A stretch of 64,000 nucleotides of DNA. It comes from Owenia fusiformis (taxonomy: Eukaryota; Annelida; Polychaeta; Sabellida; Oweniidae). Positions within the stretch are counted from its first letter, which is position 1; the number at the start of each line of letters is the position of its first letter. The stretch is from assembly GCA_903813345.2 (NCBI GenBank), contig CAIIXF020000005.1, forward strand, positions 13,829,375 through 13,893,374. Reading direction: 5' to 3'. The position numbers were made by a program, and so were the translations under genes. The notes below the pieces were generated by a model. That model saw only the letters and a program-made list of their open reading frames with translations. It made no database searches and was not told the origin of the DNA. Positions 341-30,615 of this stretch are shown here, piece after piece.

Positions 341-714
341 TGGAAAATTGTATTTTTTTTAAAAAGTAGGAACTTCTGAGGTTATTAGAAAATTGGAAGA
401 CAAGGAAGGATTCTGGCTTTAAGATATTAGGGTTATAAATTGCAATGAAACTAAAACAAAACATTCTTTTTCTCAAATATTTGTAATTTATATTCGGTTG
501 AGTTTACGAATTTAGAATATAAATAATTTCTATAGTTTTTTGTGGGGTGTAGTTCATGTATGTGTCGTTGAAATCGAACGCGATTTTCACTGATATAGCT
601 GTATGGTGAATAGCTGTCTGGTAAATAAGGCTGTTAGGTTTATACTTATCATTCTGGCTTTTGGCGCCTCACGATAAACTTCTCCAGGCTTGTCATTACG
701 CACACGCAAACAGC

Positions 715-1464
715 ATGGACAATCCTGCCACGTTGGAAGACGTGTCCAAGCTGATAAACGAACAGTTTTCAAAATTTAAAAAGGACTTAAAGGAAGACAA
801 TGAAGAAAATAATTCCAGACTCCTGAAGAAACTGAAGACGGACGACAGTTTCACGTTCAAAAAGAAGGGACACAAAGTTCAACATGACTTCAACGTCAAA
901 GTACAAGCCACCATGGAACGTTCCCAGAATTTCCTGGAGAGAGCTTCTCAGATCGACGTAGACGGTGACGCTCAAACTGACCTTTTACAACAGGCACACA
1001 ATGATCTTCAAGAAGGTATTGATTTGATTATTTATCGTAATAAACTCATTAAAATGGCTGATATGTCAGAAGCCGGTTGGAAAACTGTAGAGGAATACGA
1101 TAGACAGCCTCTTGCTAGTGATTTAGAAGACGATAAGCGTATAAGGTCAGCCGATAGAGACGCAATTAGAAAAATGCGTTCTAAATCAAGATACTCGCGT
1201 AGGAGTTTTTCTTTCAGAAACCGGGGTCGCTACTCGGATCATCAGTCCTACAACCGTGAAGAAGGGTTCCAGTACGGCCAAGGCAGAGGCTACCAATCGG
1301 GCTACCAAACGGGCTACCAAAGCAGATATGGTTGGCGCGCTCGATCCGGGGGTAGAGGACCGCAATACAAGCCAGGCGGATGTTGGACCTGCGGGGAGTT
1401 GGGGCACTGGGCCGACACGTGTACAGCGGGACAGAAAATCCCTACCACTGACAGCACGCGCTAG
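715..1464 (+). CDS. Gag-like protein with C-terminal zinc knuckle
   Basis: This is the first ORF of the retrotransposon. The frame is open from 625; the first ATG is at 715, giving about 249 residues. The first part is lysine- and glutamate-rich and looks helical. The second part is basic and rich in Arg, Gly, Tyr and Ser, with two adjacent tandem GYQ-type repeats, suggesting nucleic-acid binding. Near the C-terminus is a CX2CX4HX4C zinc knuckle (CWTCGELGHWADTC, about 1381-1422), typical of retroelement Gag proteins that package RNA. It overlaps the next ORF by more than 130 bases in another frame, so RT is probably reached by frameshifting or reinitiation. It could also be called simply ORF1. 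Confidence 0.8.
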   Translation: MDNPATLEDVSKLINEQFSKFKKDLKEDNEENNSRLLKKLKTDDSFTFKKKGHKVQHDFNVKVQATMERSQNFLERASQIDVDGDAQTDLLQQAHNDLQEGIDLIIYRNKLIKMADMSEAGWKTVEEYDRQPLASDLEDDKRIRSADRDAIRKMRSKSRYSRRSFSFRNRGRYSDHQSYNREEGFQYGQGRGYQSGYQTGYQSRYGWRARSGGRGPQYKPGGCWTCGELGHWADTCTAGQKIPTTDSTR

Positions 1465-3442
1465 TTCTTCAACAGAAAAGTTAAGTACAATTTCCGATAA
1501 AACCAGATTAGTTAATAAGATATTCGTGAAAGGCAATTTGAAAAAACACAAACAGTTCTGGTCAGAGATTAATGCAAACAGTTATGTTCAAGACATAATA
1601 GAAAACGGGTACAAAATACCATTCTCAAGTACACCTAATAGAATGTTTCTCAAAAACAACAGGTCCGCCTTAGATAACAAAGATTTTGTGTCAAATGAGA
1701 TAAAAGATCTGGTTATTTTGGGGTCTGTAAAAGAAGTCAAGCACATACCACACGTAGTTAACCCTTTAACAGTTGCAATTAACTCTTCTGGAAAGAAACG
1801 ACTCGTTTTAGATCTCAGGCACCCAAATCAATTTATTCAGCTAGACAGAGTAAAATATGAAGATATTACTACTGCAAAGAACTACCTTAATCAAGGCGAT
1901 AGTTTAATATCTATTGATGTGACGTCAGCTTATCACCACATAGATATCTGTCAAGGTCATCAATCTTTCTTTGGGTTTTCATGGGAAGAAAATGGTTCAA
2001 GAAAGTTTTATGAATTCAACGTTCTCCCATTTGGCATATCAACAGGTGGTCTAGTTTTTACCAAGGTTATGAAATGTTTGGTGACCCATTGGAGAAAGCT
2101 GGGGTTACAAGTCATTTTCTACTTAGATGATGGCCTATGTATTTCATCCAGTAGGTCACAATCCGTAACAGATTCGGCTTGTATCAAATCAGATCTAATC
2201 AATGCAGGTTTCGTTTTGAACGAGAAAAAATCAATTTTCGAACCTCAAAAATGTATTACTTGGCTAGGGTTTGATTTGAACATGGAGGACGGGAAAATTT
2301 ACGTTCCTACTTACAAAATTGAGGGTCTGAAATCTGCAATTAGTGGCTTATTGAGGCAGAAAAAGGTGAAATACAGACAAATTGCCGAAATTGTTGGAAA
2401 GATCATAGCTATGAATCAAGGTCTGGGGAAAATATGTCAGTTAATGACAAGATATCTAAGCATGAAAATAGCTGGCATAGTCAACTGGGAACACTTCACA
2501 ATTCTCTCAGTCAACGACAAAAACGAATTGTTTTTCTGGTTGAATGACATAGATAAATACAATGGGGTCAGTCTAGTAGAATATAGTATTCCTGAAAGAA
2601 TCGTTTTTTCCGATGCATCAGACTCTGCTGCAGCGGGCATTCTTGTGGGGGAAAATTCAAAAGAACGATGTTTGTTGAAATGGTCAGAAACAGAAAGTAG
2701 GAAAAGTTCAACTTTCAGAGAATTAAAAACAGTAGAAATAGTTCTAGATACTTTCAAAGAAACACTTGCGAGAAAAACTGTCTCTTGGTCAACAGATAAC
2801 AAGAATGTTGTGTCCATAACTAGTAAAGGTAGCATGATTCAAGAACTCCAAGATATCGCAGTTAAAATCTTCAAACAAAGTTCCGCATCAAATATTTGTC
2901 TGAATTTCCAATGGGTTCCCAGAGAGTTCAATGTCGAGGCAGATGCTCTGAGCAAAACATTAGATCCGGATGATTGGATTGTGCTGCCATCTATATTTCA
3001 TTTGTTGAGCAAAAGATATGGTATTCATACTATCGACAGATTCGCAAGTGAGAAAAATGCCCAAACTGTGAGATTTAATTCAAAATTCTCGGAGCCAAAA
3101 TCAGAAGGCGTAGATGCCTTTAGTTTCAATTGGTCTGGCGAGAGCAACTGGGTCGTGCCTCCCATTCAAGACATTGGTAGAGTCATCAAACACGTTAAAG
3201 TATGTAAAGCTATGGCAACTTTGATCGTACCAAAATGGCCATCCTCATATTTTTGGCCATTCATATGCAAAAATGGAAGTTTTGAAGACATAGTCATAGA
3301 TCATATCGAATTTTGCAATCCCATGAAAATTTTCAGACAGGGTCAGTTTAGAAATACAATCTTCGGCACCACCGCATTAAAATCTCATGTTTTGGCACTA
3401 AGATTGAATGGAAAGTTGGCAACACCGCAGAAGCAATTTTAA
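1328..3442 (+). CDS. Reverse transcriptase / RNase H of DIRS-type retrotransposon
   Basis: The frame is open from before 1256; 1328 is its first ATG, but the segment overlapping gag is unlikely to be meaningful and the recognisable protein begins near 1509. The RT motifs are intact: a template-grip block (RLVLDLRHPNQ), motif A with Asp (SIDVTSAYHH), motif B (LPFGIS), and the catalytic YLDD at 2120-2131. RNase H follows, with its four acidic positions in order (VFSDAS, TFRELK, STDNK, VEADALS). After RNase H comes the extension typical of DIRS elements (DRFAS...RFNS...DAF...W...NW..PP...VPKWPSSYFWP). The protein copies element RNA into DNA. No stop or frameshift is visible across this ORF, so decay appears recent. 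Confidence 0.92.
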   Translation: MVGALDPGVEDRNTSQADVGPAGSWGTGPTRVQRDRKSLPLTARASSSTEKLSTISDKTRLVNKIFVKGNLKKHKQFWSEINANSYVQDIIENGYKIPFSSTPNRMFLKNNRSALDNKDFVSNEIKDLVILGSVKEVKHIPHVVNPLTVAINSSGKKRLVLDLRHPNQFIQLDRVKYEDITTAKNYLNQGDSLISIDVTSAYHHIDICQGHQSFFGFSWEENGSRKFYEFNVLPFGISTGGLVFTKVMKCLVTHWRKLGLQVIFYLDDGLCISSSRSQSVTDSACIKSDLINAGFVLNEKKSIFEPQKCITWLGFDLNMEDGKIYVPTYKIEGLKSAISGLLRQKKVKYRQIAEIVGKIIAMNQGLGKICQLMTRYLSMKIAGIVNWEHFTILSVNDKNELFFWLNDIDKYNGVSLVEYSIPERIVFSDASDSAAAGILVGENSKERCLLKWSETESRKSSTFRELKTVEIVLDTFKETLARKTVSWSTDNKNVVSITSKGSMIQELQDIAVKIFKQSSASNICLNFQWVPREFNVEADALSKTLDPDDWIVLPSIFHLLSKRYGIHTIDRFASEKNAQTVRFNSKFSEPKSEGVDAFSFNWSGESNWVVPPIQDIGRVIKHVKVCKAMATLIVPKWPSSYFWPFICKNGSFEDIVIDHIEFCNPMKIFRQGQFRNTIFGTTALKSHVLALRLNGKLATPQKQF

Positions 3443-3444
3443 GC

Positions 3445-4000
3445 TGATAGCATTTGTTTGAAGCCTCCGAGGCGTATATTGATTGATATAAATCATTCTA
3501 TTACACAACCACCCCCCCCCCCCCCCCCGAGGCAATTACATTATGTTATTTGACCGACTGAATCTGCCGTCGAGGCAATGTTATGATATATTAAAATTGA
3601 AATGCCTCCGAGGCCACGATTTGAAATTCAAGGCAATTTTGAGGTATTTTGAAAGCCGCCGAGGCCAAAAAATGATTTGAGATGCTGACTAGGCATTACT
3701 ATATATACTTTGATATATGATTGGAGGCCGCCGAAGCTAGAATGAAAAAATAAGAGATGCCGCCGAGGCAATAAAATGTGTTGATTTAAGATTGGAGGCC
3801 GCCGAGGCTAGAAAGATAAAATAAGAGAAGCCGCCGAGGCAATATAATGTGTTGATTTAAGATTGGAGGCCGCCGAGGCTAGAAAGATAAAATAAGAGAA
3901 GCCGCCGAGGCAATATAATGTGTTGGTATATGATTGGATGCCGCCGAGGCTAGATTGATAAGATTCGAGAAACTGCCTAGGCTATAGTATAACAGATGTC
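3445..4000 (+). repeat. GCCGCCGAGGC-motif tandem block inside the retrotransposon
   Basis: Between RT/RNase H and the recombinase, a GC-rich motif (GCCGCCGAGGC and variants) recurs roughly every 35 bp in AT-rich DNA. From 3719 this becomes a regular 71-bp tandem repeat with units starting at 3719, 3790, 3861 and 3932. The earlier part (3445-3718) is a diverged version and holds a poly-C run at about 3512-3528. From 4000 to 4396 no coding sequence is visible. Possible roles are an internal structured RNA or recombination site, but neither can be shown here. Confidence 0.85.
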
Positions 4001-26502: not shown

Positions 26503-26508
26503 TTTATT
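26503..26508 (-). terminator. Candidate polyadenylation signal for the lectin-lyase gene
   Basis: AATAAA on the minus strand, 95 bp beyond the stop codon at 26603-26605. Another AATAAA lies at 26206-26211. The choice is inferred from position only. Confidence 0.45.
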
Positions 26509-26602: not shown

Positions 26603-29600
26603 TTACAACCATCTTGCCCCAGTCGTTTCTCTGGTCCTTGGGGGATGGGTCATAGTCCAACTAACCACAGAAGGCCGATATATCCCAAGGGTATCATCAT
26701 ACACAAATCGAGGGTCAGTCTGGTTGATGCCATAGCCAAACTCTTCCTGGTTTTCAATTCTCCCAGTATGCATAATGTTTTCTATAAAAATCTGACCATT
26801 TGAATCTCGATGACGTATCAGGTATGCCCTGGACGAAAAACCTTGCTGCACGTTTCTGCTGTAGAAGTTGTCAGTTGGATAGTTTGCATCGGTATCGCTG
26901 CTTCCTGGAAGTGGTTGTGTGAATAGAAATTATATAACCTCGTACGATTTCTAAATACCATAGATTCATTAATAGACGTACATGATGGTTTTAGTGTCAA
27001 ACAACAGAAATTGATTATTGTTTGGTGTATACACGTAATTTATATGTAAGTGATAAGTGTAAATATATCTTATCCAAAAGCGATATTTGCCCAAAAATAA
27101 TTTATCCCCCCCCCACATCCCACAGATTCATTGAACTGGACTCACCTATGAGGAGGCAATTTTTGCAGTTCACCATCACATTCCTTTCAACTATACATTC
27201 ATCTGCCGACCTCCTGGACCCACTAGTATTGTCGCCACTGTGCATGCTGACACCTCCCCGAACGCCACCAGTCCCTCGTTCTAGCTCCATGTAATTGTTC
27301 AATATCATATGATTCCGTCCCATTACTCGAACACCTCCGCAACCAGACTTTTCACGACAGAGAAAATAGTTCCCCTCTACCAGTGTGTTATCTGTATGAC
27401 GTAATGTCACCAACGATGCACTCTCTTCGAATGTGTTATAGCGAATTACGTTGTGACTTGCCTTGACGGAGATTGACTCTATTTCTCCATCATATTGGTA
27501 GAAATAGTTAAACTCAACAATTGTGGAAGTATTATCAAACTCACACTGCTGGAGACCTTTATGAAGAAAATGAAAAGTGAAAACAATAGGTAGCCGTTTT
27601 GACTTGTAATCAAAGCATCAATGAAAAGTCCAAGTTACAACTTTTGAATCTAGATATGATTAAGCAACATATCATAGAGTTTTTGATTCTTTGCAATTGT
27701 CCATTGTCTGAGAACTAACACGTAAATAATTTACCAAACCCCATGCGCAGGCACAAAAAGAACATTTGAAAACACCAACACTAAGTTTGCTTACCTATTT
27801 GAATACCCTCACCATCATCAGCAGAAAGGGTAACCTCTCGAGGTCCAAAGAAATTGTGGGCAATCAAATGCCCACTTGAAGAAGGCTCGTTTGCATCGCA
27901 CTTGACTCTAACTAATTGACCCAATCCCTCTTTACCCATGAAGGAGTTCCAATCTATTACGTGGTCATCTCCCCAGATCTCTACCCAATGTTGTTTGGAT
28001 TCATCTGTCCTGGACCACCCAGTGAACGCTGAGTTGGTAAGGCGGCCATTACGACTACCTATGGTGTATAAGGGTAAGTTATGTGCATATATCCTTATTT
28101 TCAGGGTCCAGTCATCAACTCGCCGAACGTTTATACGTATACATTACATCGACTTACCCTTTTCAAATGTAACACCAGTTCTCAAATTGCTACCACTTCC
28201 ATCGAACCTCAACCCTCTGATTTCAACATGACTCCCTATTACTGAAATAGAAGAACGCCCGCGTAACACCGAACCTCCATCAGTCTCCGACATGAGGTAG
28301 ATCTTGTTTCCCGCTCCCTCTGCCCCAGACGCCGTTAACACAATCGCAGCGTCGTTCCAGTCCCCATCGCGCATGATCATGTAGTCTCCCGGCGTCATAG
28401 TCTCCTGGGCTAGTAAGATATCGAGACTGTTCGAAACTTGGAAAGCTCGGCCGTTTGGTCTTTCCCACTCCCCTCCTCCGCCACCAGGCACTATTGCAAC
28501 AATGAAAATGCTTCTGACCGTGTTTGGGCAAGATTAAACAATATTGAAAATGTAATGAGAGTCAGCAACGGGAGGTTAACAAATAATTAATATTGATATG
28601 TGTTAATTTTATCATTCCCAATACAAAAAGAACAGAACGAAAATACACGACTTTTCAATTTCATTTCACCTGTTCTCACCTTGACAACGGTACTCCACTC
28701 TCATAGTTCTGGGGACGTCTTGTGGGTTATCTGGGCAAGGGTCGCCGTTAATATCGTTATTCGCTAATATTGTACACCGCTGCCTATCTTGACATAGCTG
28801 ACGTACGTGGTCGAATGTGTCCACCCAACATTCTCGGGGAACAGTAACCTATGTAGCACAAATAATCACGTCAGCTTACATGTACTTTACTATTCACTAA
28901 AATAATTTTAATTGGACAGACATGACAAATATCTGTTTTTACAGATTAATCCCAACTAGTTAAAAATTTGCAATTATAATCATATTTTTATCTTTATCGT
29001 TATTTATGTCTTACCATATCAGCAGTACATATTCCTGATCTTCGTTTACGGCCATACCTCGATGCGAGGACGTGGAGCGCCTGACCACTCGGACAGCTGA
29101 TCGTTTTCTCTTCCCCCTCACATATCCAGGTGAATCGCTCTTCCTGCGCATGCGCACCAAAGATGCTAACAAGCCCTTAACATAAATAAGCATTGTCAAG
29201 GGACAAACGAGAATAATTACATTGTGCAAATCTTGAGCAGTCAATGGTCGTTTGGGCTCCATAGTCGCTCGTGGCATAATTCAAGTTACCTTGCAGGGGG
29301 AGATTTCCCAAAGATGAGCGTTGGTATTGGCACGTTAAATACTGGTAACCAATTTCATAAAGAGGTCTCGTTTGCCATTAAAATTGATCTCAGAATGTTC
29401 GATGTTGTTTAATGACTGTTCTCTACAAGTTAAGATGGATTAACTTTAGGTGCCATGGTACTTAACAGGAAATGACAAAACAGGAAGTGACAAAACCATG
29501 CTGGATTTTGAAGATTTTTTGAACCAAGATAACAGAGTTCTGTTTTGACCTCCAGTCAGTTTAACTAATTCAACACATCATTTACATGACCAGGATCATT

Positions 29601-30615
29601 TACATGGTCAAAATGACCCTTCCTAATCAAATGATGAAATATAACTTTTTCAGCCCTTTGAAAATGTGACTGAAAAATAGCTGTCCATGCTATAAACTTG
29701 CAATAGTCAATTAATTTAATGATTTATGAAAAAGTATTGGTTGATGCTATGGAATGAGCCTGTTGCGATTAATCTTGAAATTTTTGGATGTCAAACGAAT
29801 AAACCAAGGTTTTAAAGAATTTTAGTATTCCATCAATGGAGATTAGGCCCAAGATTTGACATAACTGGATAAGTCAAAGTTATTATTGTGGAAAACTTTT
29901 CATTGAATTCAAATATGATATTCAAAAGAAGGAAAAGTTAGTTGTAAAAGGTTAAAAGTGCAAATCTCTTAAAGTCTCATGAAAACGAGAATTGGCGAGA
30001 TTTCAAAGCTATATGGAACCTCGTCTATATTTTTCATAATTTCAAAGCTTGTATATATTGGGCAGATTTTCTGAAAAATTCAAAAGATCCAGTTCAGTGA
30101 CCTTTCCCGAGGTGCTACTTTAAGCTATTATTCAGTCACATTTTCAGAGGGCTAAAAAGATATTTCATCATGTTTAGAGTCATTCTGACCATATACATAG
30201 TGATCATGGTCATGTAAATGATATGTGGAACTAGTTAAACTGACTGGAGGTCAAAACAGATGTCTGTATCATTCTAATAGATATATTGGAAATTTAAAAA
30301 CATTCGTGCATTTAAACCATTCTGATAATGCACTCGGGCTTCGCCTTCGTGCATCATGTGTCCGAATTTGTACGTGCCCTCATGCTTTTAAATTTAGAAT
30401 GATATGTGCGATTATTTCTATTACTTAAATTGATTAATAATCAAACTAGAATGGCATTTTCAACTAAGACATTTCATTCTTGTTACACAACTGGTAATTG
30501 CATTCTAACAACGTATTGGTTTAAATTTAGAATTTGATTGATAAGATGTTTAAGAACTGCCCGTATATGATGACTTACCCAAAACAATCAATCCAAATGT
30601 AACGTTTATCATCAT
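26603..30615 (-). CDS. Secreted SUEL-lectin / PL6 polysaccharide lyase fusion (7 exons)
   Basis: Exons in transcript order: 30615-30579, 29175-29015, 28848-28680, 28490-28158, 28058-27795, 27556-27146, 26904-26603. All introns are GT/AG and phases agree (1,0,1,1,1,1), giving 558 residues. Residues 1-22 form a signal peptide (MMINVTFGLIVLG..., cleavage after AHA). Residues 24-122 are a SUEL/rhamnose-binding lectin domain with eight Cys and the signature motifs YGR (53-55) and DPC (102-104). From about 123 a PL6 beta-helix lyase follows: GDGDW-like early coils, NSFMGKEG, NFFGPRE, then GEIESISVK (Glu346, Glu348, Lys353) and LVTLRH (Arg374). The Lys-Arg spacing of 21 and the ExE seven residues before Lys equal chondroitinase B Lys250/Arg271 and its Ca ligands Glu243/Glu245. 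Predicted extracellular cleavage of alginate or dermatan-type glycans; substrate unknown. Confidence 0.9.
29449..30262. mobile_element. Second copy of the GGTGCTATG foldback family, right end lost
   Basis: The left arm (29449 to about 29650) matches the element at 10785-11451, and the right arm (about 30080-30262) matches its inverted partner. The last ~90 bases of the right terminus are missing, and a small palindrome (30267-30403) starts almost at the break. The copy lies in intron 1 of the lectin-lyase gene. Confidence 0.75.
30267..30403. repeat. Small palindrome with CGGGCTTCGCC loop
   Basis: Outer arms TATCATTCTAA (about 30268) and TTAGAATGATA (about 30393) enclose partly paired AT-rich arms and a central CTCGGGCTTCGCCTTCG. 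It resembles other palindromes of this window whose loops hold TCGC-type GC-rich motifs. Confidence 0.6.

Follow-up and report, generated by a model that had tools for sequence, protein, structure and literature searches.

The 64,000-nucleotide stretch of the annelid Owenia fusiformis analysed here (the window; contig CAIIXF020000005.1 of assembly GCA_903813345.2, C5:13829375-13893374) carries on its minus strand a gene whose predicted product joins a SUEL lectin domain to a lyase domain of polysaccharide lyase family 6 (PL6). The exons were placed by eye, and the GT donors and AG acceptors lying at most four bases from each junction were then listed. They form two GT-AG sets, one of which is open from the ATG at 30615 to the stop codon ending at 26603 and encodes 558 residues. 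The gene is composed as follows.

30579..30615, minus strand, exon 1 (37 bases): ATG and the larger part of the signal peptide (by inspection); ends in phase 1
29015..29175, minus strand, exon 2 (161 bases): last residues of the signal peptide (..AHA/Q), then the N-terminal portion of SUEL with the YGR motif (splice model, Pfam)
28680..28848, minus strand, exon 3 (169 bases): second part of SUEL with the DPC motif; ends in phase 1 (splice model, Pfam)
28158..28490, minus strand, exon 4 (333 bases): Gly-rich linker, then the beginning of the PL6 domain (splice model, Pfam)
27795..28058, minus strand, exon 5 (264 bases): PL6 domain with N302 and R307 (splice model, alignment)
27146..27556, minus strand, exon 6 (411 bases): PL6 catalytic core with E346, E348, K353, R374, H375 and R398 (splice model, structure match, alignment)
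26603..26904, minus strand, exon 7 (302 bases): C-terminal PL6 part, terminal G-x-x-W motif and stop codon (splice model, alignment)
26503..26508, minus strand: AATAAA, resembling a polyadenylation signal, some 95 bases downstream of the stop codon (motif match only)

Introns 1, 3, 4, 5 and 6 are in phase 1 and intron 2 is in phase 0. The protein starts with MMINVTFGLIVLGLVSIFGAHA/Q, which by eye resembles a signal peptide, and Pfam finds a SUEL and then a PL6 domain behind it. The sequence-only reading had proposed seven minus-strand exons joined in phase, with these coordinates, this length, these residue numbers and this order of domains; the splice-site analysis and the profile matches agree with it. 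Judged from the sequence, it is very likely that both the gene and the fusion are real. Alternatively, exons 1-3 might encode a short SUEL lectin and exons 4-7 belong to a separate PL6 gene, the two having been wrongly joined in the model. This would be compatible with a fusion predicted from genomic sequence, and a stop codon follows within a few codons on reading past exon 3, which makes a short SUEL isoform conceivable. However, the first methionine in the frame of exon 4 is residue 154, inside the PL6 domain, and a separate lyase would therefore lack its full N-terminus and a signal peptide. Exons 3 and 4 are separated by 189 bases of intron, with matching phases. Such a misjoining is highly improbable.

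The SUEL_Lectin profile of Pfam is matched in full (residues 38-121, profile 1-80 of 80, 43.4 bits with a cut-off of 31.4, E 4e-11). The YGR motif lies at 53-55, DPC at 102-104, and the eight cysteines at 31, 40, 62, 73, 85, 91, 104 and 121, as read from the sequence; we take the cysteines and the two motifs to be the defining set of SUEL or rhamnose-binding lectin (RBL) domains. The SUEL part alone gives 109 bits against 5h4s, over three repeats. The eight cysteines and the CEG, YGR and DPC motifs are common to the SUEL/L-rhamnose-binding lectins (5h4s, CSL3), the RBL domain of latrophilin and the protein of the window, which differs from them in its fusion to a lyase, in the replacement of GTYK and in an Arg for Lys120. 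In detail, the alignment to 6ske shows that the rhamnose-site residues E32 and Y53 are retained, while the GTYK loop reads DNPQDVPR, with Arg113 opposite the Lys. In latrophilin-1, Glu42, Tyr63, Gly117 and Lys120 contact rhamnose, and with K120R or K120A no binding was detected (PMC2430599, cited, as are all papers here, for the part of its text that was available). The Lys is kept in all eight of the other SUEL pieces read by eye from the same genome. Because of these three facts the module is likely to have a changed ligand or none, and retained binding of galactose or rhamnose is doubtful. The loss of rhamnose-site residues lowers the expectation of rhamnose or galactose binding, not the membership in the SUEL domain. 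Consequently, of the new sugar-binding module claimed earlier, the domain stands and the retained binding becomes doubtful.

The lyase part (residues 146-458) is matched by the Pfam profile Chondroitinas_B (PF14592, PL6 family) with 166.5 bits (cut-off 24, E 1e-48); a search of the fusion protein against NCBIfam returned no family. The solved structures that match it best are those of PL6 alginate lyases, namely 8bwk (156 bits), 7o77/7o7t (148) and AlyGC 5gkd (146), followed by other PL6 lyases, whereas chondroitinase B (1dbg/1ofl), a member of the same family and the namesake of the profile, gives a far weaker 53-54 bits and Pedsa3807 (7o78) 58 bits. The sequence of the fusion protein thus resembles alginate lyases more closely than chondroitinase B; the family had been introduced as alginate lyase/chondroitinase B, and from that label PL6 membership holds, with chondroitinase B as a family name only. 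An alginate-type substrate seems somewhat the better guess from these scores. Animals make dermatan-like polymers, and a glycosaminoglycan-like polymer of host or prey (dermatan sulfate type) would imply matrix remodelling or digestion of animal tissue. Dermatan sulfate lyases do exist in PL6 and Pedsa3807 is a dermatan lyase (PMC4954714), but the best alginate lyases score 145-156 bits, as against 53-58 bits for chondroitinase B and Pedsa3807, and such a substrate is unlikely.

The active site was compared across 65 aligned rows, of which 63 are bacterial and two animal (the second animal row being a paralogue described below). N302, E346, E348 and R398 are conserved in all 65 rows, K353 and R374 in 64, R307 in 61 and H375 in 60, and all eight positions are intact in the fusion protein. 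K353 and R374 align with the catalytic Lys and Arg of AlyGC, in agreement with the Lys353-Arg374 spacing noticed at first reading. The Asn/Glu/Glu of a calcium site are present as N302, E346 and E348, which correspond to the calcium ligands of AlyGC. In BcelPL6 the catalytic pair K249/R270 is likewise 21 residues apart, activity is lost on changing K249, R270 or H271, and the carboxylate is considered to be neutralised by Ca2+ (PMC6879350). Among columns with one residue in at least 95% of the 63 bacterial rows, 46 of 57 are kept by the fusion protein and 48 of 57 by the paralogue. Near the C-terminus some 35-40 residues that are present in the paralogue and in bacteria are absent from the fusion protein; the gap precedes the terminal W motif, at which the protein ends like the aligned rows. 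When the last exon of the paralogue served as tblastn query on the whole window in search of an extra C-terminal exon, nothing was significant (best E 2.3), and no exon was added. The missing segment and the 11 changed columns would suit an inactive lyase domain serving as scaffold in a secreted binding protein, but the catalytic, calcium and substrate-arginine positions are all intact, including a His that the paralogue has lost, and this possibility is quite unlikely. On its sequence, the protein is probably a secreted, active lyase.

The gene lies on a chromosome-sized contig of 42 Mb, and the PL6 and SUEL matches in the genome and the copies of a repeat in intron 1 are all on the contigs C1-C12. 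Two features of the window bear on its context.

29532..30267, strand not assigned, intron 1: inverted-repeat element resembling a miniature inverted-repeat transposable element (MITE), with 67-nucleotide arms that are 91% complementary and copies elsewhere in the genome
46033-46596, plus strand: homeodomain exon 15 kb from the gene (Pfam E 1.8e-22; solved homeodomains match), presumably of NK1/slouch type

The repeat has at least 137 match rows including itself on ten large contigs (40 scored of 3149 candidates) and belongs to a large MITE-like family. The homeodomain exon indicates an animal context of the window. Contamination or a bacterial insert is ruled out by the size of the contig, the introns, the dispersed repeat and the nearby homeodomain exon. 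The SUEL-PL6 gene is a host gene; the contig, the splice model, the repeat and the homeodomain exon all agree with an animal gene having six spliceosomal introns, as it had first been described.

In the search of the whole genome (498,259,871 bases in 525 contigs), the PF14592 profile found four exon pieces, all four candidates having been scored, and these belong to two loci only, the window gene and a gene on C7.

C7:7573505-7575731 (1336-3562 of the fetched locus L001, from which the model was read), plus strand: PL6 paralogue, three exons, 555 residues

The paralogue is 38% identical to the fusion protein across 447 aligned positions. By eye, its signal-peptide-like start lies within the same exon as the lyase, and in Pfam it matches PL6 only, with no SUEL. 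SUEL matches number 18 in the genome, the window's own included, and none of them is on C7. The paralogue has Ala at the position of the active-site His, and for this reason its activity or specificity may differ from that of the fusion protein. The introns within the PL6 part interrupt codons 234, 322 and 459 in the window gene and codons 259 and 457 in the paralogue; no position is shared, although only one of the two paralogue introns is truly comparable, since no window residue aligns at codon 457. All five introns interrupt a Gly codon in phase 1. Such unshared introns would be expected if an intronless gene had been acquired a single time and then duplicated, with each copy gaining its own introns. 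The lectin-less C7 gene and the unshared PL6 introns are new relative to the sequence-only reading.

Bacterial relatives were collected as 106 loci (6 + 80 + 20), a few genes having been fetched twice (e.g., L011/L093 and L016/L104). Six came from ten plasmid records with a PL6 homologue, 80 were kept out of 96 confirmed in the pattern-limited scan of genome_contigs, and 20 were fetched from phylum samples with matches in 17 of 199 genomes (phylum of G001, with the paralogue as query), 40 of 395 (G006) and 10 of 82 (G004). Actinobacterial PL6 is thinly sampled, and planctomycete and verrucomicrobial rows were not obtained. The best bacterial identity is 39% over 340 residues (L099, from the G006 phylum). 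Among the 106 loci, blastp gives 283 bits between the two animal proteins, whereas the best bacterium (L105) reaches 202 bits with the fusion protein and 225 with the paralogue. Neither viral_contigs, scanned with a few short peptide patterns and with the window PL6, the alignment or the paralogue as query, nor the phages, searched for the window PL6, yielded a relative; a viral or phage route is unsupported by these searches.

Two trees were built. The careful tree is unrooted and comprises the 65 rows of the alignment; near-copies and close relatives were thinned out by hand, and the partial L084, L009 (whose frame is cut by the end of the locus) and the long-branched L008 and L010 were omitted. 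The quick tree has 67 rows (65 bacterial and two animal) and includes L008 and L010, while L009 and L084 are in neither. In the careful tree the animal pair groups as a single clade (100/100) with a branch length of 2.13, next to three genomes of the phylum to which G002 (Calditrichota) and G004 (KSB1) belong, in a set with other non-Pseudomonadota rows. In the quick tree the pair is again one clade (99), placed in a four-row set with very long-branched Streptomyces and Vibrio rows. The unity of the animal pair is therefore firm on the sequences compared, while the bacterial donor lineage is not firm, since the neighbours of the pair differ with and without the Streptomyces and Vibrio rows.

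In addition, 20 columns are private to the pair (a residue present in at most 3% of bacterial rows), whereas no single bacterium shares more than five with the fusion protein or six with the paralogue. The 20 columns include Cys388 and Cys394, which could form a disulfide suited to secretion. These columns and the fully supported clade speak against two separate bacterial transfers in place of one transfer and a duplication. The location on different chromosomes, the 38% identity and the lack of a common intron would be in line with two transfers, as would the incomplete bacterial sampling, yet this course of events is very unlikely.

A further alternative is vertical descent: PL6 would be an ancient gene of eukaryotes or of animals that most lineages have lost, and no transfer into this lineage would have taken place. 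One eukaryotic genome was searched, and the distance of the pair from every bacterium in the tree is also expected of an old eukaryotic branch. On the other side, the paralogues share no intron, all 177 PL6 proteins of CAZy were bacterial in June 2016 (PMC4954714), and PL6 is listed among the alginate-lyase families that are "essentially from bacteria" in 2024 (PMC11468063). Vertical inheritance is rather unlikely, and a bacterial origin of PL6 by transfer is the probable one on these comparisons. The horizontal acquisition proposed at first reading is thus supported as far as the pair forms one clade against bacteria, the only group compared, and the transfer itself is likely, not proven. The accompanying statement that PL6 is best known from bacteria agrees with the available text of both papers, and the phylogeny then suggested covers bacteria and the two animal genes.

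As regards the fusion, the SUEL unit (exons 2 and 3) is flanked by two phase-1 introns, which is why it may have entered by exon shuffling. Eight of the 17 other SUEL copies were read by eye in six fetched stretches. Six of the eight end at a phase-1 donor, one continues into a further repeat and one is unclear; the phase of the internal SUEL intron varies among the copies and lends no support to exon shuffling. Two of the loci (L114 and L115) each hold two SUEL matches close together, and in L114 a further repeat-like start follows one of them, which points to tandem-repeat SUEL genes. We infer, as the simplest account, that the SUEL exon pair was inserted behind the signal peptide, because a bare signal-peptide-lyase gene exists on C7. 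A domesticated lyase that was given a lectin, as suggested earlier, fits the lectin-less C7 copy and the unshared introns, the insertion step being conjectural.

The best explanation as a whole, which we consider fairly probable, is that this host gene encodes a secreted enzyme of two modules and originated by bacterial transfer. An intronless bacterial PL6 gene would have entered an ancestor of the animal and duplicated, both copies would have gained introns, and in the window copy the SUEL exon pair would have been inserted into the phase-1 intron that separated signal peptide and lyase. The lyase domain would bind a uronate polymer, most likely alginate, whether derived from brown-algal detritus or from bacterial exopolysaccharide. 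Ca2+ held by N302, E346 and E348 would neutralise the carboxylate, K353 would take the C5 proton, and R374, with H375, would help the glycosidic oxygen to leave, resulting in beta-elimination. The SUEL module may anchor the enzyme to a glycan surface through a ligand that is probably other than rhamnose.

Several points weigh against parts of this explanation. The gene model is predicted from genomic sequence; the rhamnose-site Lys is replaced by Arg113; and the C-terminal segment is absent. PL6 subfamily does not predict substrate (PMC4954714). Branches are long and the bacterial neighbours of the pair shift between trees, the comparison of the own genome with bacteria is compatible with vertical inheritance with losses, and the unshared introns are also compatible with two transfers. 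Two further lyase families were without match in the own genome, i.e., PF08787, for which no control matched, and PF14099, for which one control was below the cut-off; both negatives say little.

In comparison with known systems, the bacterial PL6 alginate lyases (AlyGC 5gkd, 8bwk, 7o77 and BcelPL6 6qps) resemble the fusion protein in the profile, the Lys/Arg pair 21 residues apart, the calcium ligands and the substrate arginines. On the contrary, the bacterial PL6 loci are only 27-39% identical to it, and spliceosomal introns, the N-terminal animal lectin and the cysteine pair common with the paralogue set it apart. SUEL was absent from all five bacterial PL6 proteins scanned (three as the matched stretch only), and the fusion protein has a shorter C-terminus, most of the bacterial frames observed having 730-950 residues. 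Molluscs have alginate lyases of PL14, the fold of which is not known to be related to that of PL6. Eukaryotic alginate lyases are represented in a different PL family, and PL8 and PL14 alginate lyases come from some eukaryotes (PMC11468063). Plant GH35 beta-galactosidases also combine a carbohydrate-cutting enzyme with a lectin-like domain, at the C-terminus (PMC13070324). They differ in enzyme class, in the opposite position of the domain and in being from plants, and presumably represent an independent fusion. Their lectin-like domain is of SUEL type.

Among the literature matches listed on PL6, alginate lyases and SUEL (titles and starts of abstracts), none concerned an animal PL6 or a SUEL-PL6 protein, and the available parts of PMC11960938, PMC10192322 and the rotifer-lectin paper PMC8878817 contain no finding of PL6 in animals. 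An automatic annotation of the gene may well exist already. Tentatively, and with less confidence than for the parts above, this could be the first animal PL6 family: a single gene acquired from bacteria and duplicated in the animal lineage, one copy of which was converted through phase-1 exon shuffling into a uronate lyase targeted by a lectin. With such an enzyme of its own, a bottom-dwelling animal could break down the alginate of brown algae or the exopolysaccharide of microbes. Carbohydrate enzymes that animals have acquired are already known, and PL6 is treated as bacterial (PMC4954714, PMC11468063). Consisting of a bare lyase and a lectin-lyase, the gene pair is a case in which one can test how an enzyme taken over from bacteria might be adapted to secretion and targeting, with introns, a new cysteine pair and the insertion of a binding module. 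Should it act on alginate, the enzyme would provide an animal-encoded route for brown-algal carbon.

Elsewhere in the window, a retroelement lies at 625-3442 (plus strand) with a zinc knuckle and a reverse transcriptase, together with weak RNase H-like and Dam-methylase matches below their cut-offs; its order of domains resembles that of DIRS-type elements.

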